DNA of 39,870 nucleotides from Candidatus Accumulibacter contiguus (lineage in GTDB: Bacteria > Pseudomonadota > Gammaproteobacteria > Burkholderiales > Rhodocyclaceae). The notes beneath the pieces are model-generated. The model ran no database searches. It had not been told where the DNA came from and saw only the letters and a list, made by a program, of their open reading frames with translations. The position numbers were made by a program, and so were the translations under genes. This document shows positions 5,468 to 35,798 of the stretch, piece after piece (positions within the stretch are counted from its first letter, which is position 1; each line of letters opens with the position of its first letter). The stretch is from the NCBI RefSeq assembly GCF_012940005.1, contig NZ_SPMX01000088.1:1-39870 (forward strand), written 5' to 3'.

Positions 5468-6046
5468 TTACACGGCAGTGCTACCCGCATCACCGCCAGC
5501 GACCTGCGCCAGCATCGCGATCTCATCGACCGAGAGCACCTTGACGATATTGAGGAGGATCACGAACCTGCCGGCGACCTTGCCCATGCCCTGGATGAAG
5601 TCGGCACGGATGCGGGCGCCGAAGGATGGTGGCGGCTCGATTTCGCTGCTCGGGATCTCGATGACTTCCGAGACCGCATCGACCAGGATGCCGATGTCGT
5701 TGCACAAGTCGCCCTCGCTGACCTCGACGATGACGATGCAGGAGCGTTTTCCCGCTGTACTCTGGGCGCCGCCGAAGCGGGCCGCGAGGTCGATGACCGG
5801 GACGACGGCGCCGCGCAGGTTGATGACGCCGCGGATGAACGCCGGCATCATCGGGATCTCGGTGACGTTGCCGTACTCGATGATCTCCTTGACGTTGAGG
5901 ATGCCGACGGCGAACATCTCGCCGCCGAGCAGGAAGGTGAGGTACTGCTGTGGGCTTTCGGCGGCGGCCTGCTGTGCCTGCAGGGCGGCCGTGGCGCGCC
6001 TGGCGACGGCATGGGCGGCGGGGCGGGTGGGGGTGATCTGGGTCAT
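5468..6046 (-). CDS. cheW: Chemotaxis adaptor CheW
   Basis: Cytoplasmic adaptor of 192 residues linking chemoreceptor tips to the CheA P5 domain. The CheW fold starts at [27 protein letters not shown] and contains the typical [29 protein letters not shown] stretch, [16 protein letters not shown] and a C-terminal [12 protein letters not shown] helix region. An Ala/Gln-rich N-terminal extension of about 30 residues precedes the fold and is shared by the other CheW copy and by the relics. The ribosome site TGAGGAG includes the stop codon of the upstream mcp (6059), so translation is probably coupled to that receptor. This is one of two intact cheW genes in the window. Confidence 0.97.
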
Positions 6047-6058
6047 GGTCGGTTCTCC

Positions 6059-7696
6059 TCAGAAACGCTCGAAGTCGTGCTCGGCCGGCGTCAGCGCGGT
6101 GACCCGTGCCGGTGCTCGGTGGTGTGGTGCGGCCGCCGGGTTCGGTGCGCGCTGGGCAGGGGCGCTCCGTCTCGCCGTCGCCGCGCTGCGGCCGCGATCG
6201 GCCAGGCGGAAGAAGGTCATCAGCTCCTGCAGTTGCGCGGCCTGGCTGCCGAGTTCCTCGGCGGTGGCAGCGAGTTCTTCCGAGGCCGAAGCATTCTGCT
6301 GTGTCGCCTGGTTGAGTTGCCCCATCGCACCATTGATCTGGCCGACCCCGGAACTCTGCTCCTGCGATGCGGCAGCGATTTCCTGGACGAGATCGGAGGT
6401 CTTCCGGATCGACGGCACCATCTCGCCGAGCAGCGAGCCGGCGCGTTCGGCGAGTTTCACCGAGTCCTTGGCGACATTGCCGATTTCCTGCGCCGCGACC
6501 TGCGAGCGCTCGGCGAGCTTTCGCACCTCGGCGGCGACGACGGCGAAACCCTTGCCGTGTTCGCCGGCGCGCGCCGCTTCGATGGCGGCGTTCAAGGCCA
6601 GCAGGTTGGTCTGGTAGGCGATGTCGTCGATGATGCCGATCTTCTCGGCGATGCTCTTCATCGCTTCGACGGTTTTGCCGACGGCTTCGCCGCCTTCGAC
6701 GGCCTGCCGCGAAGCAGTAGCGGCCATGCCGTCGGTGACTTTGGCATTCTCGGTATTCTGGACGATCGACGCGCTCATCTGTTCCATGCTGGCGGTGCTT
6801 TCCTCGACCGAAGCGGCCTGTTCGCTGGACGACTGCGAGAGCGACTGGGCGGTCGCCGATACCTGGCCCGAGGCGTTGCTGAGGTTGTCGGCGGCGGTAC
6901 GCACTTCGCCGATGATCTCGCCGAGTTTGCCGACCATCGCCTGCATCGCCGACATGAGCTGGCCGACCTCGTCCTGGCCCTGTGCTTCGACTCTGACCGT
7001 CAGGTCGCCTGCGGCGAGCGCGTTGGCGGCGGTCAGCGCTTGATGGATCGGACGCGTGATCGAGCGCGTGACCCAAAGCGCGAACAGAGCAGCAAGGACG
7101 ATTGCCGAAGCGCCAAGAATCAGAAGCAGCACTTGCGTCTGGTCGGCGCGCTCGTCGGCTTCCTTGCCTTCGCGGGTCATGGCTTCTTCCTCGTGGCCAA
7201 CCACCTTGGCCAGAGCCGCGATGTAGTCACCTTGCGACTTGCGCATCCGGTCGAGCATGACCTCGGTCGCCTTGTCCTTCTGGTCGGCCTTCAACAGCGT
7301 CAGGAACTCCTCCTGATCCGCCAGGTAGGTGCTGCGCAGTTGTTCAACGTCCTTGAGCAGGGCCTTGCCTTTTTCACTGTGGATGGTCTTGTGCAGCTTC
7401 TCGAGATTCTCGGCGACGGTTTTCTTGGCTTCTTCGATCCGCTCGTACTGCTTCTTGATTTCTTCGGGACGCGGATCGATCAGCAGGTTGCGCTGCGAGC
7501 GAGCTGCCAGGTTTACAGCCTCGCTGATATTGTTGGCCCAGACCGTTTTCGGGAAACGTTCGTTGACCAGTCTACTGATGTCGTCGTTGAGTCCGCCGAC
7601 GCGCAGGTAGGCCAGCAGCGAGATGCCGAGCAGCAGGGCGACGACGATGCCGAAGCCGAGCCCGAGACGGGCGCCGATTCTGAGATTCTTGAACAT
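6059..7696 (-). CDS. Methyl-accepting chemotaxis protein, four-helix-bundle type
   Basis: Chemoreceptor of 545 residues starting [16 protein letters not shown] at 7696, with GGAGG upstream. A first membrane segment (about 10-30) leads to a periplasmic four-helix-bundle sensor rich in charged residues (about 31-185), a second membrane segment (about 188-208), HAMP ([12 protein letters not shown]) and a signalling hairpin with its conserved tip at about 359-378. The tail is an Ala/Pro-rich linker ending DFERF, a good match to the x-aromatic-x-x-aromatic pentapeptide by which some receptors recruit CheR and CheB. It sits 43 bases after cheA and directly before cheW, so it may be the main receptor of this CheA. 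Its signalling half is almost the same DNA as in the mcps at 1901 and 3666. Confidence 0.96.
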
Positions 7697-7739: not shown

Positions 7740-9956
7740 TCAGTACGAGGCCAACAGTTCCGGCTGCCGGGGCGCAGTCAGACGCCTGTCTTCGAGACTG
7801 GTGACGAGGCCGACCAGCGCCGGCACGTCGAGGATCAGCGCCACTTCGCCGGTGCCGAGGATGGTCGATCCGCCGATGCCGCGCAGGTGCTTGAAAAGGG
7901 CGCCGAGCGGCTTGATCACCGTCTGGAATTCGCCAAGCAGGGTGTCGACGACCAGTCCGGCCTTCTTGCCGGCGTACTGGATGATCACCACGTTCTGGCG
8001 CTTGGGGACCTCGCCACCGATGGCGAAGAGTTCGCGCAGTCGGACGAAAGGCAGCACCTCGCCGCGCAGGTTGAGATAGTTGCGCTTTGCCGATGCGTCG
8101 GCGAGTTCGATGCATTCGACGACCGAGTCGAGCGGCACCACGTAGGACGCCTTGCCGACGCTGGTCAGGAAACCGTCGATGATCGCCAGCGTCAGCGGCA
8201 GGCGGATGGTGAAGGTCGATCCTTCGCCTTCGATGGTGTCGACCTCGACACTGCCACGCAGGCTCTGGATGTTGCGCCGGACGACGTCCATGCCGACGCC
8301 GCGGCCGGAAAGGTTGGTGACCTTCTCGGCGGTCGAGAAACCGGCTTCGAAGATCAGGTTGCTGATCTCGTGCTCGGAGAGCGTCGCGGCGGCGTCGATC
8401 AGTCCCTTGTCGATCGCTTTCTGGCGGATTTTGTCCCTGGGCAGGCCACCGCCATCGTCGATGACCTCGATGACGATGTTGCCCGAGTCGTGGTAGGCGT
8501 TGAGCTGAACGGTGCCGTTCTCGGGTTTGCCGCGCGCGGCGCGAAGCGCCGGCGCTTCGATGCCGTGGTCGATGGCGTTGCGCACGAGATGCATCAGCGG
8601 GTCGCCGAGTTTCTCGACGACCGATTTGTCGAGTTCGGTCTCGGCGCCGGTGATCACCAGGTCGATGGCCTTGCCCATCTCGCGCGAGCTGTCGCGCACG
8701 ACGCGGTTGAAGCGGTTGAAGGTCTCGCCGATCTGCACCATGCGCAGTTGCAGCGCCGAGTCGCGGATGTCCTCGACGAGGCGCAGCAGCACCGAGGTCG
8801 ATTCGATCAGGTCCGACTGGCCGCTGCGCTGCGCGAGCAGGTTGGCGCCGGCGCCGGCGATGACCATCTCGCCGACCAGATCGATCAACTGGTCGAGCTT
8901 GTCGGCGTGCACGCGGATCACTCGCGCTTCGAGCGCCTTCTTCTCGCTGACCACGGCCTGGCGGGTGGCGGCGGCTTCGACGACTTCCTTGTGCACGACT
9001 TTCTGTTCGACGAGGACGTCGCCGAGCGGGGGGGGGGCCGCTGCTTCGCCCGCGGCTTCTCTGACGGGAGCGCGGCTTTGCGCGCTGAGGCCATCGTCGA
9101 GTTCGGCCTGCGTCAGGGCACCGGAGCGGACGAGGATCTCGCCGAGGCGCATGTTGTCCTCGGGCAGTTCGTCGATCAGCTTGAGGTATTCGCCGATCCT
9201 GGAATTCGGCGGCAGGATGTACAGCGTGCACTCGTCGCGGACGAAGTCGAAGACCTGTTCGATCTGGGCTTTGCTGGCGCGCGTCTGGAAGCCGATCTCG
9301 AAGCCGAGGTAACAGCATTCGGGGTCCATCTTCTCGGCCGTGGGCAGGGCATCGGCGAGCGTGGTGAGGGTGGTGATCTCACCAAGGGAAGTCAGGTAAT
9401 GGAGCAGCGACAGCGGGTCCATGCCGTTCCTCAGCACGCCGGGGCCGAAGCGCACCGAGATGTGCCAGGCGTCGGTGTCGACGACGCCGCCACCGGAGGC
9501 TTCGATGGAGTTGTCGTCCTCGGCCGCCAGCATGCCGTCGCGGTTACCCGTGCTGCGGACCGCGCCGCCGCCGAGAAACAGCTCGGTCAGCCTGGCCAGC
9601 AGGGCATCACCGCGCGTCTGCACGGTATCGTCGGGCCGCGGCAAGCCGGCAGCGAAGACGTCGAGCAGGGCGCCCAGGTGGTCGCAACATTCGAGCATCA
9701 CCGTCGACAGTTCGCCGCTGACCGGGATCTCGCCGTTGCGCAGCTTGTCGAGGACGTTTTCGACCTTGTGCGTGAAGGCTTCGATGAAGTGGCATTCGAC
9801 GACGCCGGAGCCGCCCTTGATGGTGTGCGCGGCGCGAAAGATGGCGCCGAGGTTGTCGGCGTCGTCGGGGTTCTGCTCGAGCTTGAGCAGACCGTCTTCC
9901 ATCGCAGTGAGCTGGTCGCGGCTTTCGTTGACGAAGGTGCTGGTCAGTTCATCCAT
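7740..9956 (-). CDS. cheA: Chemotaxis histidine kinase CheA with MshEN-like linker
   Basis: CheA of 738 residues autophosphorylates and passes phosphate to CheY (and CheB). P1/HPt is at about 1-105, with H44 in [11 protein letters not shown] second domain (about 163-250, [16 protein letters not shown]...LGFEIGF...LYILPP) sits where the response-regulator-binding P2 is expected. Residues 270-293 and 310-333 form two 24-residue segments of the LGxxLV...Q type, matching the MshEN c-di-GMP-binding pattern. P3 dimerisation follows ([21 protein letters not shown]), then P4 ATPase with [16 protein letters not shown] and GRGVGMDVV, and a CheW-like P5. The start at 9956 has AAGGAA upstream. A run of ten C (coding strand) at 9028-9037 lies between the two LGxxLV segments; a one-base slip there would remove P3-P5. 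It lies between the STAS gene and an mcp. Confidence 0.97.
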
Positions 9957-9992: not shown

Positions 9993-10298
9993 TCAGCCTT
10001 GCGCTGAAATGAGCATCGGGTCGCCGAAGACGCCGGCCAGGTTGCAGAAGTCGAGAACCCGCTGGACCATCGGGCTGTGGCCGACGATGGTCAATTGCTT
10101 GCCCTGCTGCAGCGCTTCGCGCTTGAGCAGCAGCAGGAGTTGCAGGCCGGCGGTGTCCATTTCGGGGACTGCCGAGAGATCGAGATCGAGCTGCCTGGTC
10201 GCCGCCAGCGCGGCCAGCAACTGCTTCTTCTGGGATTGTGCCTGGTAGATTGTCATGTCCTCGAGAATGGCGAGGCGGGCGGCGGCGGAAGCGGTCAT
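9993..10298 (-). CDS. STAS-domain protein
   Basis: Small cytoplasmic STAS (anti-sigma-factor-antagonist-like) protein of 101 residues. The start MTASAAARLAILEDM at 10298 has AAGGAG six bases upstream; the frame is open further upstream but only as a shadow of the next gene. The fold is recognisable from LDLDLSAVPEMDTAGLQLLLLLKREA, then QLTIVGHSPMVQRVLDFCNLAGVF. The residue normally phosphorylated (Ser in D-S-x-G-L) is Thr here (MDTAGL), so phospho-regulation is possible but unproven. STAS genes occur beside cheA in other proteobacterial chemotaxis operons; the exact role is not established, and binding to CheA or a receptor is my inference. The gene lies 36 bases before cheA and 22 bases after the MCP-like gene. 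Confidence 0.9.
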   Translation of the reverse strand: MTASAAARLAILEDMTIYQAQSQKKQLLAALAATRQLDLDLSAVPEMDTAGLQLLLLLKREALQQGKQLTIVGHSPMVQRVLDFCNLAGVFGDPMLISAQG

Positions 10299-10320: not shown

Positions 10321-11670
10321 TCAGAAGAGTTCGACGTTCGACGGTTTGCTGGCTGGCGCCGGCGCAGCAGCGGTTGAAGTGCGCGCCTTGGGGACGGCAG
10401 CGGGCGGGCGCGGGCGGTGCGTGCGGCCGATCGCCTGGCGATGGGCGTCGCGCTGCTGGTCCATGACATAGTTCGAGAACTGCTGCTCCATCTGCCGGGC
10501 GAGCGGTTCGATGCGCACCTCGTGGCCGCCATCGGCGCCGCTTTCGATGGCTCCGGCGAGCGCTTCGGCGTGCTGGTCGAGACGTCCGAGGCCGTGGATC
10601 ACCTGTTCGATCTGCTGGCGCGTCACGTCCTGGAACTGCACGCTGGCCAGGGCCTCCATGAACATCGTGGCGAGCTTGCCGCTGTTCGTGGTGATGGTGT
10701 CGAGGATCTGCCGTTCGCGCGCCGTCAGGCTCTCGTAGCTGGCGCCGAGGGCGGCGAGCTGCTGCGTGAAGCGTTCGAGACTGTCGCGTTCCTCCTTGAT
10801 GTGCGAGTGCGCGAGCTTGTCCTTGAACTGGCGCTCGATGATCTGGGTGACGGCGATGATGCCGTCGTTGATCTTCTTGACCGCGGCTTCGGTTTCGTGC
10901 GAGAGCTTCCTCACCTCGTCGGCGACGACCGCGAAACCGCGTCCGGCCTCGCCGGCGCGGGCGGCCTCGATGGCCGCATTGAGCGCGAGCAGGTTGGTCT
11001 GGCCGGCAATGTGCCGGATCAGATCGACCAGGGTTTGCAGCGAGCGGGCTTCCTTGACCGCTTCGACACTGTGTTTCTCGTCCGCGGCGGTCTCTTCGAC
11101 GCGCTGGGCGATGAAGGCTTCGAGCTTGCCGATCAGTTGGCGATTGCCGGCGATCTGCTCTTCGGATTCGTGCGCCATGGCCTGCGATTCCGCGGCGGCG
11201 GCGGCCACGAACTGGTTCAGGTCGGTGACTACCTCGTCGATCGTCTGCAGTCGTGAAGTCACCTCGTAGGCGGCCTGTTCGGTCTGCTCGACGACGCTCT
11301 GCAATTGCCCGACGAGGACCTGGTTGAAGCGCGGGATTTCCCGCAGCTCGGGCAGCGCGACGCGCTGGCAGACCTGCTGCGACGGGCAGCGCTGGCGTTC
11401 GTCCTGGAGACTTTCGTCGATGCCCAGGTGGGCGTCGTGGTACAAGAGCCGCGAGAGCGCCTGCTGGAGGCCCAGGAACAGCAGCAGACCGAGCAGGGTC
11501 ATCAGGGTGTCGCGGCTGCGATCGCCGAGAGCGAAGGTCTGGCTCAGGAAATCGACGTACCAACCATGCAGGAGCAGGACGACGATGAGCAGCACGACGG
11601 TCGCGGCCAGTCCGGTGAGCAGCGAACGCCGGCGATACTGGTCTTGGGGTTTGCCGAGGGAAGGGGTCAT
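10321..11670 (-). CDS. MCP-like membrane protein with CheZ-like phosphatase motif
   Basis: Protein of 449 residues with two membrane helices near the N-terminus (about 17-36 and 56-74) and almost no periplasmic domain. The cytoplasmic part has a chemoreceptor hairpin tip ([35 protein letters not shown], about 223-257) but a short hairpin and no clear HAMP. After it, residues 344-353 read [10 protein letters not shown] in a helix; D348 and Q352 are spaced as the catalytic Asp and Gln of CheZ (FQDLTGQ). A Pro/Ala-rich linker leads to the last residues NVELF, which may act as a tether. It starts 9 bases after cheY, and no separate cheZ is seen in the window, so a phosphatase role toward CheY-P is attractive but inferred. 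Otherwise it is an intracellular-signal MCP-like protein of unknown input. Confidence 0.85.
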
Positions 11671-11679
11671 CGTCTCGGC

Positions 11680-12048
11680 CTAGCGGATGACCAGCTTGAT
11701 GGTATTGAGCAGGTCGTCGGCGGTCGCCGGTTTGACGATCCAGCCCGAAGCGCCGGCGGCCTTGGCTTCCGCCTTGCGGCTTTGCTGCGATTCGGTGGTC
11801 AGGAAGAGAATCGGCAGGAACTTGTAGGCGGGCAGCGTGCGCACCTGCTTGATCAGCTCGATGCCGTTCATGCCGGGCATGTTGAGATCGGTGATCAGGA
11901 GGTCGACCTTGACTCCGGCCTTGAACTTTTTCAGGGCCTCGTCGGCATTCGACGCCTTCTCGACGGCAAAGCCGGCCTTGCCGAGGATGCTCGATACGCT
12001 GAGCAGGATGGTTGCCGAATCATCGACCAGAAAAATGGTTTTTGCCAT
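11680..12048 (-). CDS. cheY: Chemotaxis response regulator CheY
   Basis: Single-domain receiver of 122 residues. The acidic pair D9-D10 (FLVDDSA), phosphoacceptor D54 (LITDLNMPGMNG), T84/T85 (LFLTTES) and K106 (GWIVKPA) are all present. The aromatic switch position before the lysine motif is Trp (SGWIVKP) rather than Tyr. It is the first gene of the chemotaxis operon, with AGGAG upstream of the ATG at 12048, and it faces a divergent gene pair across 12049-12322. CheA would phosphorylate it; the phosphorylated form would act on the flagellar switch or another output. No flagellar genes are in the window, so the output is not shown here. Confidence 0.96.
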   Translation of the reverse strand: MAKTIFLVDDSATILLSVSSILGKAGFAVEKASNADEALKKFKAGVKVDLLITDLNMPGMNGIELIKQVRTLPAYKFLPILFLTTESQQSRKAEAKAAGASGWIVKPATADDLLNTIKLVIR

Positions 12049-12322: not shown

Positions 12323-13132
12323 ATGCGAATCCTTGTCCTCCTTTTGCGCCTCGTCGTGCTGGCCAGCGGCCTGAGCGTGTCTGCTCAGGGAAGCACCGCA
12401 GACCTTGCCACGAGCCGGCTCGATCGAGTCCGGGAGGCCAGGGTGCTGCGTGTCTGCATCTGGCCCGACTACTACAGCATCACCTACCGCAACCCGAAGA
12501 CGCAGTTGCTGTCCGGGATCGATATCGATCTGGCCGGCGAACTCGGCAAGGACCTCGGTGTGGCGGTGCAGTTCGTCGATAGTTCCTTCGCCAGACTCAT
12601 CGATGATGTGACTCAGGATCGCTGCGATCTGGCCATGTTTGCGGTCGGCATCACGCCCGCGCGTGCGGAAAAGCTGCGTTTCACACGCCCCTATCTGGCC
12701 AGCGACATTTATGCGATCACCACCAAAACCAATCGCCGGATCAAGGACTGGGATCAGATCGACCGCACCGGCTCGGTGGTGGCCGTCGCCCGAGGGACGC
12801 TGCATGAGTCGATCATGAAGGGCAAACTCAAGGCGGCGCAACTGCTGGTTCTCGATACGCCATTTGCGCGCGAGCAGGAAGTCCAGTCGGGTCGCGCCGA
12901 CGTTTTTCTGACCGACTACCCCTATAGCCAGCGTTTTCTGGCGAGCGCCGACTGGGCGCGCCTGGTCTCGCCCCCCGGCGCCTACCACATCACCCCCTAC
13001 GCTTATGCCATGCAGCCCGGTGACGATGCCTGGGCGGCACGCATCGAGCGCTTCGTCAGCGACATCAAGAACGATGGGCGGCTGCTGGCAGCCGCGCGGC
13101 GGCATAAACTCGAGACCATCGTCTCCCCATGA
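12323..13132 (+). CDS. Periplasmic solute-binding protein, family 3
   Basis: Extracytoplasmic ligand-binding protein of 269 residues. I chose the ATG at 12323 (GGAG six bases upstream) because it begins a clear signal peptide, MRILVLLLRLVVLASGLSVSAQG. The mature part has the bacterial extracellular solute-binding family 3 pattern: LRVCIWPDYYSITYRNP, GIDIDLAGELGKDLGV, CDLAMFAVGITPARAEKLRFTRPYL, VAVARGTLHES and a late QPGDDAWAARIERFV. This family usually binds amino acids or similar solutes for ABC importers, but no permease or ATPase gene is near. The stop overlaps the ATG of the following GGDEF-EAL gene (ATGA at 13129-13132), which suggests that the protein reports ligand to that membrane c-di-GMP enzyme rather than serving uptake. 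Confidence 0.93.
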   Translation: MRILVLLLRLVVLASGLSVSAQGSTADLATSRLDRVREARVLRVCIWPDYYSITYRNPKTQLLSGIDIDLAGELGKDLGVAVQFVDSSFARLIDDVTQDRCDLAMFAVGITPARAEKLRFTRPYLASDIYAITTKTNRRIKDWDQIDRTGSVVAVARGTLHESIMKGKLKAAQLLVLDTPFAREQEVQSGRADVFLTDYPYSQRFLASADWARLVSPPGAYHITPYAYAMQPGDDAWAARIERFVSDIKNDGRLLAAARRHKLETIVSP

Positions 13133-15852
13133 CGCGCCGCGCCTGGCGGCAGTTACGTACGACGTTTCTGCTTTTCCTGGGTGTATTCGTCGGCGGCATG
13201 GTCGCCATGAGCGCCTACACCCTGTGGCGACTGCGTGGCGAGGCGGTGGCCAACGGTCTGGGCATCGCAGCGATGCATTCGCGAGGTTTCGAGGACTTCC
13301 TGACGCAAAGCCTGCACGTCACCGAACTCGTCGCGGCCAACTCCCTGGCGCAGGTGTCGCTTGTGCGCGATGCGCGCGAGATCGAGCGGACTTTCGTGGC
13401 GGCCCTGCAGCATGTGCCATTCCTGCGCTCGATGTCCCTGCTGGACGACGCGGGGCGGATTGTCGCCAGTTCCAATCCGGCCAACCTCGGCGTGACGGTG
13501 GCGACACAAAATTATCTGCCGGCAGACGCTGGCCGGCTGCAGATCCTGCGCATCGGCGAGCCCTGGGCAGGACGTGATTTCGCCAGTGGCCAGCCATCGA
13601 CGGCGGGAACGCCCGTCGATGCCGACTCGCTCGGCTTCATCCCGGTGACACGCAGCATCGGGCTTGGCAAGGGGCGCGTAACCTTGCTCTTTGCGCTGAA
13701 TCCGGACTATTTCATCAACCATATTGCCCAGAAGATCGCTGCCGAGGAAGGATCGGTCAGCGTGCTGCGCTACGACGGCACGCTGCTGATGGATAGCGAC
13801 CCCGGCGGGCGACCCGGATCGTTGCAGGACCACTTCGTGAGTGAACTGCGCCTGGCCGAGGTCGAGTTTGGCCAGTTCGAACAGGGCAGCGGCGAGGATC
13901 GCCCGCGGCTGATCGCCTTTCGAGCGTCGCGCCTGTATCCCTTCCTCGTCGTCACGGCGCTCGATCGTCGGCCCGCCCTGCAGCAATGGCGGACCGAGAC
14001 CAGGACCGTGCTTGGCGTCATGGTTCCCGCTCTGCTGGCGATCACGCTGCTGGCGACCGGCCTCTACCGCCGGCAGATGCAGTTGGCCGAGCAACGCGCA
14101 GAATCGGAGCGCCTGCAGCAGATCAACGCGGCCAGCGTGTTCACCAACGCCCGCGAGGGCATCATGATCACCTCCCCCGACGGCACGATCCTCGACGTCA
14201 ATGAGGCCTTTTCCCGGATGAGTGGTTTCAGTCGCGAGGAATCGCTGGGGCAGAACCCGCGCTTTCTCCGCTCCGGTGTTCAGGCAAAGGAGTTTTACAC
14301 CGCCATGTGGGGCGATCTGATCGGCCAGGGCCACTGGAGCGGTGAAGTCTGGAATCGCGGCAAGAGCGGCGAGATGTTTGCGGCGATACTGACGATCAGT
14401 GCGGTGCGCGATGATCAGGGCAGAACCCGGCAGTACGTGGCCCTGTTCTCCGACATCACCCTGCTCAAAGCAAACGAAGAGAAGCTCAAGCGGACGGCTC
14501 ACTACGACGCGCTGACCGGTTTGCCCAATCGCGTGCTGCTGGCCGACCGCCTGCATCAGGGCATGATGCAGACGCAGCGGCGCGGGCAGCGCCTGACCGT
14601 CGCCTTTCTCGATCTCGATGGCTTCAAGGCGGTCAACGACCAGCACGGTCACGAAGCCGGCGACCAACTGCTGATGACGGTGGCGGGTCGAATGAAGCAG
14701 GCCTTGCGCGAAGGCGACACGCTGGCGCGTCTGGGGGGCGACGAGTTTGTCGCGGTATTGCTCGATCTCTCGGATATCCCCTCGTGTGCGCCGATCGTGG
14801 ACCGCCTGATTGCGGCCAGCGCCCAGCCGGTGCCGTACGGCGAGCAGATACTGCAGGTGTCGACCAGCGTCGGCGTGACCTTCTACCCGCAGGCCGAGGA
14901 GGTCGATGCCGATCAACTGCTGCGCCAGGCCGACCAGGCCATGTACCAGGCCAAGCTCGCCGGCAAGAACCGCTACTGTGTCTTCGATGCCGAGCTGGAT
15001 CGCAGCGTCCGCAGCCACAACGAACGCCTGGAAGATATCCGCCGTGCCCTGTTGGCCGATGAATTCGTTCTCCACTATCAGCCCAGGGTGAACCTGCGCA
15101 GCGGCGCGGTGATCGGTGTCGAGGCCCTGATTCGCTGGCAGCATCCGGAAAAAGGACTGCTGCTGCCAGCCGCTTTCCTGCCGCTGATCGAGAATCACCC
15201 GCTGGCGGTCGATCTCGGGGAATGGGTGATCGCGCGTGCCCTGGCGCAGATCGCAGAATGGCGCGGTGGCGGACTGGAGATGGCGGTGAGCGTCAATATT
15301 GGCGCACGGCAGTTGCAACAGGCCGGTTTCGTCGAACGACTGCGTACTCTGCTGGCCGGACAGCCGGAGGTGGGACCGGGTAGGCTTGATCTCGAATTGC
15401 GGGAAACGCGTGCGCTGAAAGACCTCGCCAGTGTCTGTGCGATCATCACCGCGTGCCGGAAAATCGGCGTGTCATTTGCCCTCGACGATTTTGCCTGTGG
15501 CCATTCCTCGCTGACTTACCTGAAGAGCCTGCCGGTTTCCCGGATCAACATCGACCGCAGTTTCGTCTGCGACCTGCTCGAAGGTGGGGAGAATCGAGCC
15601 GTCCTTGAGGGGGTGATCGGGCTCGCCAAGGCTTTTCACCGCCAGATCGTCGCCGAAGGCGTGGAGAGCATCGAACAGGGTCAGATGCTGCTCCAGCTCG
15701 GCTGCGAAAGTGCCCAGGGTGACGGCATCGCCCGGCCGATGCCGGCGGCCGACATCGTCGCCTGGGTGGCTGCCTGGCAGAGTTCGCCAGGTGCGCTCAG
15801 AGGCGCAGCGCTGCCGTCAGTGAGCGTACCTCATCTGCCGATTCGCGCATGA
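13129..15852 (+). CDS. Cache-PAS-GGDEF-EAL membrane protein
   Basis: Membrane c-di-GMP enzyme of 907 residues. A membrane helix (about 11-32), a periplasmic double-Cache-like domain (about 40-285) and a second helix (about 292-313) precede a PAS domain (about 333-450), GGDEF (about 455-620) and EAL (about 635-885). GGDEF is intact at 536-540 with an inhibitory RxxD site (REGD, 527-530), so diguanylate cyclase activity is likely. In EAL, E665 (EALIRW), the Asn of SVNIGARQ, the Asp pair of LDDFACGHSS and AEGVES are kept, but the catalytic Lys of the usual KID motif is Asn (RINIDRSF, N807), and QGY is QGD. Phosphodiesterase activity may therefore be lost. It overlaps the upstream binding-protein gene by ATGA, and its 3' end overlaps the converging HDOD gene by 56 bases. 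Confidence 0.95.
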   Translation: MTRRAWRQLRTTFLLFLGVFVGGMVAMSAYTLWRLRGEAVANGLGIAAMHSRGFEDFLTQSLHVTELVAANSLAQVSLVRDAREIERTFVAALQHVPFLRSMSLLDDAGRIVASSNPANLGVTVATQNYLPADAGRLQILRIGEPWAGRDFASGQPSTAGTPVDADSLGFIPVTRSIGLGKGRVTLLFALNPDYFINHIAQKIAAEEGSVSVLRYDGTLLMDSDPGGRPGSLQDHFVSELRLAEVEFGQFEQGSGEDRPRLIAFRASRLYPFLVVTALDRRPALQQWRTETRTVLGVMVPALLAITLLATGLYRRQMQLAEQRAESERLQQINAASVFTNAREGIMITSPDGTILDVNEAFSRMSGFSREESLGQNPRFLRSGVQAKEFYTAMWGDLIGQGHWSGEVWNRGKSGEMFAAILTISAVRDDQGRTRQYVALFSDITLLKANEEKLKRTAHYDALTGLPNRVLLADRLHQGMMQTQRRGQRLTVAFLDLDGFKAVNDQHGHEAGDQLLMTVAGRMKQALREGDTLARLGGDEFVAVLLDLSDIPSCAPIVDRLIAASAQPVPYGEQILQVSTSVGVTFYPQAEEVDADQLLRQADQAMYQAKLAGKNRYCVFDAELDRSVRSHNERLEDIRRALLADEFVLHYQPRVNLRSGAVIGVEALIRWQHPEKGLLLPAAFLPLIENHPLAVDLGEWVIARALAQIAEWRGGGLEMAVSVNIGARQLQQAGFVERLRTLLAGQPEVGPGRLDLELRETRALKDLASVCAIITACRKIGVSFALDDFACGHSSLTYLKSLPVSRINIDRSFVCDLLEGGENRAVLEGVIGLAKAFHRQIVAEGVESIEQGQMLLQLGCESAQGDGIARPMPAADIVAWVAAWQSSPGALRGAALPSVSVPHLPIRA

Positions 15853-16776: not shown

Positions 16777-17881
16777 GGTTGAAGGTCTCGATCAGCGCCG
16801 CAGGGATCTGCTGGAGTGGCAGCACCCGATCGGCGGCGCCGAGCCTGATCGCCTCCCTGGGCATGCCGAAAACCACACAGGAGGCTTCATCCTGGGCGAT
16901 CGTCGCGGCGCCGGCATCGTTCATCTCCTTGAGGCCGCGGGCGCCGTCGTCGCCCATGCCGGTCATGATCACGCCGGCTGCGTTGCCGCCGGCAAACCGG
17001 GCTACCGAGCGGAACAGCACATCGACCGAGGGTTTGTGGCGATTGACCAGGGGGCCGTCGAGCACCTCGATGTAATACTGCGCGCCGCTGCGCTTCAACA
17101 GCATGTGCCTGCCGCCGGGAGCGATCAGCGCGAGCCCCGGCAGCACGCGATCGTTGTTCCGGCCCTCGCGGACTTCGATCGTACACAGCGAGTTGAGGCG
17201 TTCGGCGAACATCGCCGTGAACTGCTCGGGCATGTGCTGGACGATGACGATTCCCGCGATCGTCAGCGGCAGGCGGGTCAGTACGGCTTCGAGTGCTTGC
17301 GTTCCGCCGGTCGAGGTGCCGATGGCGATCACCTTGTCGGTCGTCCTTTGCACCGCCGCGTTACCGGCGGGGAGGATGGCGTCCGCGCTGTTGCGCGTCA
17401 TTCTCTGCAGCGTCGGCAGCCGCGCGCTCGCCGCCGGATGGGTGGTGGGGAGCGGCTGTCCCGGCAAGGCGACCCGGGTTCGGGCGGCCGCGCGGATGGC
17501 GGCGATGATGTCGTTCGTGGCGTCTTCGAGGAAGCCCTTGAGCCCGAATTTGGGCCTGCTGATGATGCTCACGGCACCCGCAGCAAGCGCCTGCATGAGC
17601 GTGTCGCTGCCGGTCGCGGTGGGCGATGAACAGATGATCACCGGCGTCGGTCGTTCAGCCATCAGCTTGCGCAGGAAAGAGAGGCCGTGCATGCGCGTCA
17701 TTTCGATATCGAGAATGATCACGTCCGGCCAGTTCCTGCGCATCTTGTCCATGGCGAAGAGCGGATCGGCCGCCGTACTCATGACCTCGATGCCGGGCTC
17801 ACGGGCCAGCGCCTGCGCAACGACCTGACGGACCAGCGCCGAGTCGTCGACGATCATGACCTGGATTTTCCCTTCATTCAT
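16766..17881 (-). CDS. cheB: Chemoreceptor methylesterase CheB
   Basis: Two-domain methylesterase/glutamine deamidase of 371 residues. The receiver has D12-D13 (IVDDSA) and phosphoacceptor D58, but the usual DIEMPRMDG reads DIEMTRMHG, changing a conserved Pro and the second Asp. After a linker of about 45 residues, the catalytic domain has S190 (IGTSTGG), H216 (VIVQHMP) and D312 (MTGMGDDGA), the full triad. It removes methyl groups from the receptor glutamates that CheR modifies. The start at 17881 overlaps the end of the HD-GYP gene by 8 bases, making cheB the last gene of the kinase operon. Apart from cheR in the same operon, no other adaptation enzyme is seen, so it may act on the MCPs encoded on both sides. 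Confidence 0.96.
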
Positions 17882-19013
17882 GAATTTCCCCTTTCCCTGG
17901 TGGGGGATGGGTCGGAAGAGAGCTGGAATGGCCGGCAGCGATCGCGTTGAAAGTCTCGGCGCAGACCAGGAAGCAATCGACGACCAGCGGGTCGAAGTGC
18001 TTGCCGCGCCCCTGTGCGATGATCTCCACCGCTTTGCCGTGAGGCAGGGCGGGCTTGTACACCCGCTTGCTGATCAGGGCATCATAGACATCGGCGATCG
18101 CCATCAGGCGTGCGGCGAAGGGAATGTCCTCGCCGCGGAGGCCCTGCGGATAGCCTGTACCGTTCCAGCGCTCGTGATGCGAATAAATGATTTCGCTGGC
18201 GATCCGCAGGAACGGGTGCAGGGTGTCGACCCCGAGTTCGGCCGCGTGCAGGGCATCGCGGCCGATCGTCGTATGTCGCTTCATGATCTCGAACTCCTCG
18301 GCATCGAGTGGTCCTGGCTTGAGCAGGATCTGGTCAGGAATTCCCACTTTGCCGATGTCGTGCAAGGGGGCGCATTTCCAGAGCAGCCCCCATTCTTCGA
18401 GTGGCATGCGATCCCGCTGTGCGGGTTGTTGCAGGAGGTTTTCGACGAGTGCCCGGACATAGGCGCGCGTGCGACGAATATGATCGCCGGTCTCGTTGTC
18501 ACGGGTTTCGGCGATCGCTCCGAGGGCCACGATCGTCAGTTCCTGACTGCGCTGCAGGTCCAGCGTTCGCGCTTCGAGCGCCTGCGTACGTTCGCTCACC
18601 AGCGATTCGAGATGGAGATTGCGGTCCGCCAGATAAATCTGTGCCTGGCGCAGGCGTAGTTGCGTGCGTACGCGTGCCAGCAGAATCGGTGGTGCCACCG
18701 GCTTGGGCACATAATCGACGGCGCCGAGTTCGAGACCGCGGATGATGTTGGCAATATCCGTATGGCTGGAAAGAAAGATCACCGGGATCTCGGCGGTGCG
18801 GGTATCCCGCTTGAGCGCCGAGCAGACCTGGTAGCCGTTCATGTCCGGCAATTCGAGGTCGAGCAGTACCAGGTCGGGTGCCGGCGACATTTGCGCCAGC
18901 TCGATGCCCTTGCCGCCACGCGTCGCGATGCGCGTGCGAAAGTGCGGGAGCAGGCATTCGTTGATGACTTCGAGGGTTGCCGGGTCGTCATCGATCAGGA
19001 GAATGGTGGTCAT
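17874..19013 (-). CDS. HD-GYP response regulator, c-di-GMP phosphodiesterase
   Basis: RpfG-like response regulator of 379 residues. An N-terminal receiver (D52 in [13 protein letters not shown] switch in FLSSHTD, K in YVPKPV) is joined by a coiled-coil-like linker (about 125-165, [17 protein letters not shown]) to an HD-GYP domain (about 168-360) with [10 protein letters not shown] and [13 protein letters not shown], so the metal site and GYP motif look intact. It should hydrolyse c-di-GMP when phosphorylated by one of the hybrid kinases encoded upstream. The start overlaps the stop of the kinase at 19010 by ATGA. The last residues ([12 protein letters not shown]) are encoded by a REP-like repeat copy and are probably not part of the domain. 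Confidence 0.95.
17882..17922. repeat. REP-like element, copy 2, within the HD-GYP 3' end
   Basis: Diverged copy of the GC hairpin element at 16681-16725: both share AATnTCCCCT, CC, GGGGGnnGGGTCGG and GAG in the same order. This copy lies inside the last codons of the HD-GYP gene, next to the cheB start, and encodes its Pro-rich tail. Confidence 0.4.
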
Positions 19014-33650: not shown

Positions 33651-35798
33651 TCAAGTTGCAGATCTGATCGTTAACCAGGGCGTGCCATCCATTCGCGGAG
33701 GATCCCTCCGGGCGCACGAATTCTCGACAGATTCGGGAAAATGTTCGGCTGCCAGCGGGTGGCTGAAGAAATATCCCTGGTAGTAGTCGCAGCCGTGTTC
33801 TTCGAGAAAAGCGAGCTGCTCTGCCGTCTCGACGCCTTCGGCGACCACCGAGAGGGACAGTGAATGCGCCATGGCGATGATCGTTGCGGCGATCTCGGCG
33901 TCGCTGCTGTCGGTGGTGACGTCACGGATGAAACTCCGGTCGATCTTCAGCTTGTCGATCGTGAAGCGCTTGAGGTAGCTGAGCGAGGAATAGCCGGTGC
34001 CGAAATCGTCGATCGACAGGCGAACGCCGAGCGCACGAATCCGATTGAGGATGGCGACGGCCCGCTCGCCACGCTCGATGAGAATGCCCTCGGTGATCTC
34101 CAGTTCGAGGAAGCGGGCGTCCAGACCACTGTCCGCCAGGGTCTGGCGAAGCAGTTCCGGTACGTCCTGCAAAAAGAACTGTCGCGGCGAAAGGTTGACG
34201 GCGATGGTCCGCAGCGCTCGCCCGGCATCGAGCCAGGCCCGCATCTGCCGGCACGCCGTCGCCAGCACCCAGGCGCCGAGTGGTGCAATCAGTCCGCTAT
34301 CCTCGGCGACCGGAATGAAGTGGATCGGTGCGATCATTCCCTGCTCGGGATCGCACCAGCGCAGCAGCGCTTCCGCGCCGATCACCGCGCCACTGCTGGC
34401 CTCGATCAGCGGCTGGTAATGCAGGAGCAGATGGCCGAGGTTCATTGCCCGGCGCAGGCGCGATTCCAGGCGCATGCGTTCGAGTGCGTGTGTGGTCAGG
34501 GCTTCGGTGTAGAAGCAGAAGGTCTTGCGTCCCTGCATCTTGGCCAGATTGACGGCGGTGTCGGCGTTGCGCAGCAGCAGCGCCGGATCGCTGCCGTCGT
34601 CGGGCGCGATGCTGATGCCGGCGCTGGCGCTGAGGTAGATCTCGTCGCTGCCTCCAATCCGGAAGGGGGCTTCGAGTGCCTGGAGCAGGTCGCGGGCGAC
34701 GACGGCGGCATCGGTCGCAACCTCGATCTCCTCCATCAGGATCGCGAATTCGTCGCCGTGCACCCGCACCAGCGTGTCTTCGTCGCGCAGCCGTGACTTG
34801 AAACGTTCCGTGACCGCGACCAGCAGCCGATCGCCGAACTCGTGCCCGAGCGAGTCGTTGATGTTCTTGAAGAGGTCGAGGTCGATGATCAGGAGCGCCA
34901 TTTTGTGATGGTGACGCTGCGCCCTTTCGAGGGCGTGTTCGAAGCGGATGTTCAGCAGGCTGCGGTTGGGCAGTTGCGTCAAGGTGTCGTGGTAGGCAAT
35001 ATATTCGGCGTGTGCCTCGGCGTTGCGCAGGCGGCTGATGTCGGTGAATACCCCGATGTAGCGTTCGATCTGCCCGTACTCGTCGTGCACCGCGGTGATC
35101 GTCAGCCATTGCGGGTAGGTTTCACCGGTCTTGCGGCGGTTGCAGAGTTCTCCCTGCCAGAAGCCGGTGCTGGTCAGTTCGCTCCAGACCGTGTCGTAGA
35201 ACACCGCGTCATGGTGGCCCGACTTGAGGATGCTGGCATTCTGGCCGACGGCTTCCTCGCTGCTGTAACCGGTGATTTCCGTAAAGGCGTGATTGACGGC
35301 GACGATGCGGGCGCTGGCGTCGGTGATCGCCACGCCGTCACGCGTCAGTTCGAACACCTTCGCCGCCTGCCGCAGTGATTCCTCGCTGCGCCAGATCGCG
35401 GTGATGTCATCGACGATCACCGCGAACAGACCGATTTCCGGACAGTAGGCGGTGACCCGGTAATGGCGGTCGAGGTCGACGCTGAAATCGTCGAACTGCT
35501 GACAGTCGCCAGTCAGCGCGACCGAACCGTAGCGCTCGATCCACAGCGGTTCGAGCTGCGGCAGCACTTCGCGAACCCGCCGGCCGACGAGCCTGCTCCT
35601 GGCGATGCCGGTAATCGCCTCGAAGGCCGGGTTGACGTCGATGAAGCGATAATCGCAGGGCTGGCCTTCGCCATCGAGAAGGATCTCGTGCAGCGCGAAG
35701 CCCGAGGGCATGGCATCGAAAAGGCTGCGCAGGCGTCGCTCGTCGATTCTCGGGAGGGATGCCTCGCGGGGAGCACTGCTATGGTGGACTGATGGCAT
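33651..35798 (-). CDS. PAS-PAS-GGDEF-EAL protein, probable phosphodiesterase
   Basis: Cytoplasmic c-di-GMP enzyme of 715 residues, with no membrane helix. Two PAS domains (about 18-135 and 140-262) precede GGDEF (about 268-430) and EAL (about 445-690). The GGDEF signature is HGDEF (H347-F351), with His for the first Gly, while the RxxD site (RDED) remains; cyclase activity is doubtful, and GTP-dependent activation of EAL is possible. EAL looks complete: E476 (EALLRW), NLSPRQF, LEITEG, DDFGTGYSSLSYL, LKIDRSF, AEGVET and QGYFFSHP. It should therefore hydrolyse c-di-GMP. Start at 35798 with GGAAAA upstream. It follows the mcp stop by 48 bases and may be co-transcribed with that receptor. Confidence 0.95.
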   Translation of the reverse strand: MPSVHHSSAPREASLPRIDERRLRSLFDAMPSGFALHEILLDGEGQPCDYRFIDVNPAFEAITGIARSRLVGRRVREVLPQLEPLWIERYGSVALTGDCQQFDDFSVDLDRHYRVTAYCPEIGLFAVIVDDITAIWRSEESLRQAAKVFELTRDGVAITDASARIVAVNHAFTEITGYSSEEAVGQNASILKSGHHDAVFYDTVWSELTSTGFWQGELCNRRKTGETYPQWLTITAVHDEYGQIERYIGVFTDISRLRNAEAHAEYIAYHDTLTQLPNRSLLNIRFEHALERAQRHHHKMALLIIDLDLFKNINDSLGHEFGDRLLVAVTERFKSRLRDEDTLVRVHGDEFAILMEEIEVATDAAVVARDLLQALEAPFRIGGSDEIYLSASAGISIAPDDGSDPALLLRNADTAVNLAKMQGRKTFCFYTEALTTHALERMRLESRLRRAMNLGHLLLHYQPLIEASSGAVIGAEALLRWCDPEQGMIAPIHFIPVAEDSGLIAPLGAWVLATACRQMRAWLDAGRALRTIAVNLSPRQFFLQDVPELLRQTLADSGLDARFLELEITEGILIERGERAVAILNRIRALGVRLSIDDFGTGYSSLSYLKRFTIDKLKIDRSFIRDVTTDSSDAEIAATIIAMAHSLSLSVVAEGVETAEQLAFLEEHGCDYYQGYFFSHPLAAEHFPESVENSCARRDPPRMDGTPWLTIRSAT

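Follow-up and report, generated by a model that had tools for sequence, protein, structure and literature searches.

The CheA kinase encoded in the window (the whole stretch of 39,870 nucleotides of Candidatus Accumulibacter contiguus that we analysed) carries a real, conserved and derived MshEN_N domain in the linker between its P2-like domain and its dimerisation domain P3. This linker (residues 270–333, window positions 8958–9149, minus strand) is most likely the kinase's own sensor of c-di-GMP, a reading that includes predicted binding of the ligand and to which we give a probability of roughly 0.55. A preliminary description of the same DNA had placed a tandem MshEN-like motif at exactly these coordinates; its MshEN-like reading is borne out by homology, as detected with profiles, and by the predicted fold. 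The host protein is a CheA by its Hpt, dimerisation, HATPase_c and CheW domains, which Pfam finds in that order:

7740–9956, minus strand: cheA, an ORF of 738 residues (Pfam Hpt, H-kinase_dim, HATPase_c, CheW)
9675–9950, minus strand: P1 Hpt domain, residues 3–94 (Pfam PF01627, 4.4e-15)
9213–9467, minus strand: P2-like domain, about residues 164–248, ferredoxin-like by the secondary structure of the predicted model
9078–9149, minus strand: motif I, residues 270–293, a c-di-GMP half-motif complete at its six ligand positions
9030–9077, minus strand: spacer of 16 residues, 294–309, of low confidence in the models
8958–9029, minus strand: motif II, residues 310–333, an altered half-motif (ATPase profile E 0.02, NF053729 E 0.14)
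8748–8924, minus strand: P3 dimerisation domain, residues 345–403 (PF02895 and model)
8190–8603, minus strand: P4 kinase domain, residues 452–589 (PF02518)
7812–8171, minus strand: P5 CheW-like domain, residues 596–715 (PF01584)

The second domain is called 'P2-like' for its position and predicted fold; the Pfam scan of CheA gave no match for this domain, and its Foldseek matches are ferredoxin-like folds among others, with E of 0.02 or worse.

Motif I had been described as a full match to the 24-residue MshEN pattern. It agrees with the published consensus except at position 11, where alanine stands in place of L/V/I; this is not a ligand position, and the six that are (R1, L2, G3, L17, L21 and Q24) are all present. 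The second, weaker copy is also there: motif II retains L2, G3, L6, V7 and Q24, and P310, K319, V326 and A330 replace R1, G10, L17 and L21. The intervening stretch, put at about 16 residues, counts exactly 16, against the 5 of MshEN. With this spacer and the altered motif II, the linker is, as judged from its sequence, not a canonical MshEN. The structure of MshE shows R1, G3, L17, L21 and Q24 of motif I together with L2 of motif II around one guanine and the mirror set of residues around the second, and Q24 of motif II hydrogen-bonds the ligand (PMC5013675). If the guanine contacts are as in that structure, half-site I of the window CheA is complete, with L311 as the L2 of motif II, and half-site II is altered: it would have neither the arginine nor two of the leucines (now V and A), and would keep G3, Q24 and the L2 of motif I.

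The motif pair is widespread among related kinases. The closest named relatives of the window CheA belong mostly to Candidatus Accumulibacter MAGs and are 78–85% identical to it; cultured relatives with examined loci include Azospira oryzae (L080), Dechloromonas denitrificans (L076) and Rhodocyclus tenuis (L133). A survey of CheA homologues, which the preliminary description had suggested, found the pair in 142 of 173 fetched CheAs, a set that combines best search matches with hand-picked proteins, some deliberately divergent, and is therefore not random; nor is it de-duplicated (L006 and L076 share a linker, as do L007 and L117). All 80 named loci, mostly from Rhodocyclales, carry the pair, as do 34 of 49 CheAs sampled from the order and 28 of 44 from the class, which leaves 15 and 16, respectively, lacking it. 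Three alignments were used: A1 with 79 rows (the window and 78 of the 80 named loci), A2 with 32 rows from the order sample chosen as pair-bearing, and A3 with 76 rows (the window and 75 of the 80). Across the 142 pairs, motif I has G3 in 142, L21 in 141, Q24 in 140 and R1 in 121, and motif II has Q24 in 142, G3 in 140, V17 in 132 and R1 in only 13 (129 pairs are without this arginine), with proline at position 1 in 70; these counts lean upward, because motif letters, Q24 and G3 among them, also entered the score of the pair caller. Neither Q24 varies in the plain alignments (79/79 rows of A1, 32/32 of A2). At position 21 of motif II, the named loci have V (42), A (35) or I (3), and the CheAs outside them mostly L (43/62).

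Spacers in the fetched CheAs range from 0 to 28 residues. Exactly 5 residues separate the motifs in four class-sample CheAs and one order-sample CheA (L013, L181, L182, L184 and L199), and a search of the phylum that covered 249 genomes, with 29 loci examined (L223–L251), added CheAs with spacers of 5–6 (L228, L229 and L231). At the other extreme, 0–1 residues join the motifs of L187 and L200; the register of L187 is uncertain, and both motifs of L200 are complete under relaxed letters. Eight CheAs that scored well over the whole protein (L039, L040–L045 and L047) have no linker motif match, and the linkers of L039 and L043 bear a motif I remnant without the ligand residues. We also noticed ORFs of about 750–850 residues with four or five consecutive MshEN-type motifs (L233, L245, L236, L238–L240, L242, L249 and L251), two of which, L233 and L245, Pfam identifies as T2SSE/PilB-like ATPases. 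On a tree of 103 tips built from the kinase region, with a midpoint root and one outlier, pair-bearing CheAs lie mostly in one part, motif-less CheAs with other linkers lie elsewhere and losses are scattered; parsimony requires 11 changes between presence and absence of the pair. The genome of A. contiguus itself (5.0 Mb in 167 contigs, the window being contig C127) encodes two more pair-bearing CheAs, one on C3 (L252, 2150–4384), 85% identical to the window CheA, and one on C58 (L253, 7183–9300), 51% identical. In the C58 cluster, a STAS gene seems to adjoin cheA, as judged by a regular expression.

A chance resemblance in an unstructured linker might be suspected, given that PF05157, the Pfam entry named MshEN, has no match to the window linker and that an HMM of unselected ATPases is weak per domain. 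We regard it as extremely improbable: profile, shuffle, genome-wide and structure controls all contradict it, and PF05157 does not cover the motif. A strict motif I pattern, which leaves positions 11 and 12 free, matched none of 35,000 shuffled CheAs and 106 of 175 real ones (a set that includes the window CheA twice). A loose motif pattern matched 54 times in 3500 shuffles, exactly twice in 134 of the 142 pair-bearing CheAs and not once, even as a single motif, in the 31 CheAs without the pair. With an HMM built on 17 ATPase MshEN_N rows (alignment A4), picked from 34 loci by a motif regular expression and with the strand set by eye, the complete window CheA reached 36.0 bits (E 1e-9, assuming a set of 5000) and both motifs were detected (21.3 and 12.0 bits), against 6.1 bits for the best shuffled domain; no domain exceeded 1.8 bits in 18 motif-less CheAs chosen by eye. 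The HMM from all 34 unselected loci, half of which have no recognisable motif pair, was much weaker (22.9 bits, E 1.5e-5), and its best single domain in the window CheA, at 8.6 bits, was hardly above the best shuffled one at 6.8.

In a search of the organism's own genome at E<=1, the 17-row profile had seven matches, of which the three CheAs account for five and two ATPases for the rest, and those in the window CheA had E-values of 2.9e-5 and 0.02; a Walker A motif is present in all 17 profile rows and in both of these ATPases. When linker profiles were run against the PDB, MshEN-type chains made up 14 of the 16 rows for A2, ranked first, and 14 of the 15 for A1; the best match of A2 was PilF (2.9e-23, for a whole chain of several domains), and MshE (5htl) was found at 3.7e-8 with A2 and 4.4e-4 with A1. 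Profile–profile comparison of the CheA linkers with ATPase MshEN_N gave probabilities of 98.0% and 98.8%. By sequence comparison, the window linker is thus homologous, well above chance, to MshEN_N, the half of MshEN that binds c-di-GMP.

The profile search against the MshEN/T2SSE_N family that had been proposed as a check gave a divided answer, negative for PF05157 and significant for the ATPase MshEN_N profiles. In the 17 ATPase loci (of 34) with a recognisable pair, PF05157 starts to match only beyond motif II, and in the others beyond the stretch in the place of motif II. The model thus misses the linker because it starts after the motif; for this reason its negative says nothing about the motif, we rejected it as a test, and to count the missing match as a refutation, as the preliminary description would have done, would mislead. 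PF05157 covers the C-terminal subdomain, which is not needed for c-di-GMP binding.

The NCBIfam model NF053729 (c-di-GMP_motif, 53 positions, cut-off 38) gave 40.5 bits for the isolated linker and 32.8 bits for the whole protein, the match being split into two halves by the long spacer. It matches all 79 linkers of A1 and all 32 of A2 at E<=0.01. In the genome search, the same five proteins (two ATPases and three CheAs) pass its cut-off, the window linker with neighbours at 40.4 bits, and one further match is sub-threshold at E 0.5. The CheAs on C3 and C127 pass only when both halves are summed; the C58 CheA, with a spacer of 7 and a motif II arginine, also passes. Beyond the genome, L229, which has CheA domains by Pfam, gave an unbroken match of 36.1 bits, just under the cut-off. 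The isolated linker scored 16.4 bits with DUF4388, below the 25 required for membership. Sub-threshold DUF4388 matches (E<=1) occur in 70 of the 79 linkers of A1 and 26 of the 32 of A2 (in the window CheA at positions 8928–9173). This model also matches multi-motif ATPases and exceeds its cut-off in L233, so that a helical repeat of this kind may be part of DUF4388.

Structure prediction, another of the proposed checks, returned an MshEN-type fold. The model of residues 262–343, made with 79 sequences, has four helices with a mean pLDDT of 71, and the predicted bundle resembles that of 5htl. Its six best PDB matches in Foldseek are MshE with c-di-GMP, four PilF GSPII-B entries and Xanthomonas PilB-N; the best, 5htl, has a probability of 1.00, a TM score of 0.61 and an E-value of 0.13, and none of the others has a better E-value. 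A longer model (residues 160–415) gave 839 Foldseek matches, none at E<=0.001, and the 50 best comprise ferredoxin-like folds, gyrase and others, none of them MshEN. These weak E-values and the moderate confidence of the model weigh against the sensor reading, as do the NF053729 score of the whole protein, the poor best domain with the unselected ATPase HMM and the pair-less CheAs of the order and class samples. In the longer model, helix alpha-4 spans residues 323–344 and the first P3 helix begins at 351, a predicted gap of about six residues.

The conserved ligand-contact residues, above all the two glutamines, speak for binding of c-di-GMP, and the isolated MshEN_N of MshE binds at 0.35 uM without MshEN_C (PMC5013675). 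The absence from motif II of R1, G10, L17 and L21, with the small A330 at position 21, speaks against it, and a spacer of 16 instead of 5 speaks against the sensor reading. In a study on PilF, mutants needed a 'large hydrophobic' residue at this position 21, and binding was lost in a construct that had alanine at G3 and no motif II arginine (PMC12002112). Binding stays plausible because PilF GSPII-C, whose motif II also starts with a proline (P335), reportedly binds c-di-GMP (PMC11731258, PMC12002112). Both reports give PilF two c-di-GMP-binding domains, and they disagree on which of the two has the lower Kd. This precedent is imperfect on account of the third motif in GSPII-C. In our judgement, binding is reasonably probable for the pair-bearing CheA family and stands at about even odds for the window copy, whose affinity would presumably lie in the micromolar range or weaker.

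We infer both binding and gating, and consider it likely that c-di-GMP gates the window CheA in the following way. The linker would fold, between the P2-like domain and P3, as a four-helix bundle of two tandem motifs, with one guanine bound, in the manner of MshE, by motif I and L311. The second would be bound more weakly by motif II, through its backbone at G312, Q333 and L271 and no arginine. Binding of c-di-GMP would order the bundle. As some six residues separate the end of helix alpha-4 from the P3 dimerisation helix, the closed bundle could restrain the P1–P2 arm and change kinase output; it is this predicted spacing that leads us to propose a transmission from the bundle to P3. High c-di-GMP would more probably lower the output, the direction being the least certain step. 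On a broader scale, we would tentatively propose, at somewhat under even odds, a whole branch of proteobacterial CheAs, mainly vertically inherited, that carry an asymmetric MshEN_N at the P2–P3 position, are gated directly by c-di-GMP and have a loop whose length could vary freely between 0 and 28 residues.

The most serious alternative is that the MshEN_N of this clade, still homologous and folded, no longer binds and serves between P2 and P3 as a structural spacer or a module for protein contacts. The altered half-site II, the long spacer and the 11 changes on the tree would all fit such a retirement, which has precedents in XpsE and PilF GSPII-A, described as non-binding (PMC5013675, PMC12002112). 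We consider it rather unlikely, as Q24 of motif II is kept in all 142 CheA pairs (a count that leans upward) and in all 79 rows of A1, against only 7 of the 17 ATPase rows, and as the 31 pair-less CheAs have not even a single motif, which is expected if the two halves are kept or lost together. Another possibility starts from the systematic asymmetry of the pair, with motif I near canonical and the motif II arginine absent in most CheAs: the linker might bind another guanine nucleotide, or half of c-di-GMP, or c-di-GMP might be shared across the CheA dimer via half-site I of each protomer. MshEN does bind cGAMP too, more weakly (PMC5013675). Nothing positive points to another ligand, however; the two motifs of a chain are conserved together, and the five CheAs with the canonical spacer of 5 also argue against it, so that we hold this explanation to be improbable. 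The reading of the linker as a c-di-GMP sensor remains the one that we prefer.

The surroundings of cheA are those of a chemosensory cluster on the same strand, with genes for a CheY, an MCP-like protein and a STAS protein upstream and chemoreceptors and CheW downstream; an HDOD protein, CheB, a REC-HD_5 protein and CheR are encoded further upstream:

5468–6046, minus strand: CheW (PF01584, 1.4e-38)
6059–7696, minus strand: chemoreceptor directly downstream of cheA (PF00015, PF12729, HAMP)
9993–10298, minus strand: STAS-domain protein, upstream of cheA (PF13466, 3.7e-15)
10321–11670, minus strand: MCP-like protein with signalling domain (PF00015, 1.3e-25)
11680–12048, minus strand: CheY-like receiver (PF00072, 3.6e-26)
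13129–15852: GGDEF-EAL gene
17874–19013: REC-HD_5 gene
33651–35798: GGDEF-EAL gene

The STAS gene, whose ORF is listed from 10532 and likely starts near 10298, sits between the MCP-like gene and cheA, and a STAS pattern occurs in 32 of the 80 named loci by a noisy regular expression that probably misses some. The two GGDEF-EAL genes and the HD gene, whose HD_5 domain we take to be of the HD-GYP type, had been noticed before and are indeed present. As an argument for c-di-GMP sensing this neighbourhood is weak: a GGDEF-motif ORF was found by regular expression in only 4 of 20 order-sample stretches of 11–20 kb around related cheA genes, and the same expression does find the window's own GGDEF motif. 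We therefore rejected the GGDEF neighbourhood as a conserved feature. A scan of the 80 named loci found a GGDEF motif within 4-kb flanks in three, an unfair count since the window's own motif (14734) lies 4.8 kb from cheA, beyond such flanks; the EAL expression of that scan is noisy.

If the linker binds, c-di-GMP would reach chemosensory pathways at their phosphorylation core: the central kinase itself would read the messenger, beyond receptors, CheR adaptors and CheY-like proteins. In the open-licence literature that we searched, we found no report of measured c-di-GMP binding by a CheA. Nor did we meet a description of the P2–P3 position, the altered half-site II or the variable spacer, with queries that did not name these three features. 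Our results also reveal an annotation gap, as the Pfam entry that bears the name MshEN leaves the c-di-GMP motif uncovered.

The association of MshEN with CheA is itself already published: Wang 2016 (PMC5013675) mentions MshEN with CheA and CheX in one sentence, which pairs the same domains as here, for CheAs that may be of another subfamily. Compared with Vibrio cholerae MshE (5htl), the window CheA shares the tandem 24-residue motifs, the predicted four-helix bundle, the six ligand positions of motif I and L2, G3 and Q24 of motif II. It differs from MshE in its spacer (16 versus 5), in the four replaced positions of motif II, in having no MshEN_C and in its host, a CheA instead of an ATPase. 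Thermus thermophilus PilF GSPII-C, the best-scoring stretch of the best PDB match for both linker profiles (A1 and A2), resembles the window CheA in a motif II with initial proline, V17 and Q24; unlike it, GSPII-C has a spacer of 7, a third motif, a retained L21 and a pilus ATPase as host. NfrB of E. coli, a glycosyltransferase in contrast to CheA, is likewise a non-ATPase enzyme with MshEN as its regulatory domain; its domain is described as fully conserved, with a Kd of 1.0 uM (PMC8669469), and the NCBIfam NfrB model weakly matches 52 of the 79 CheA linkers.
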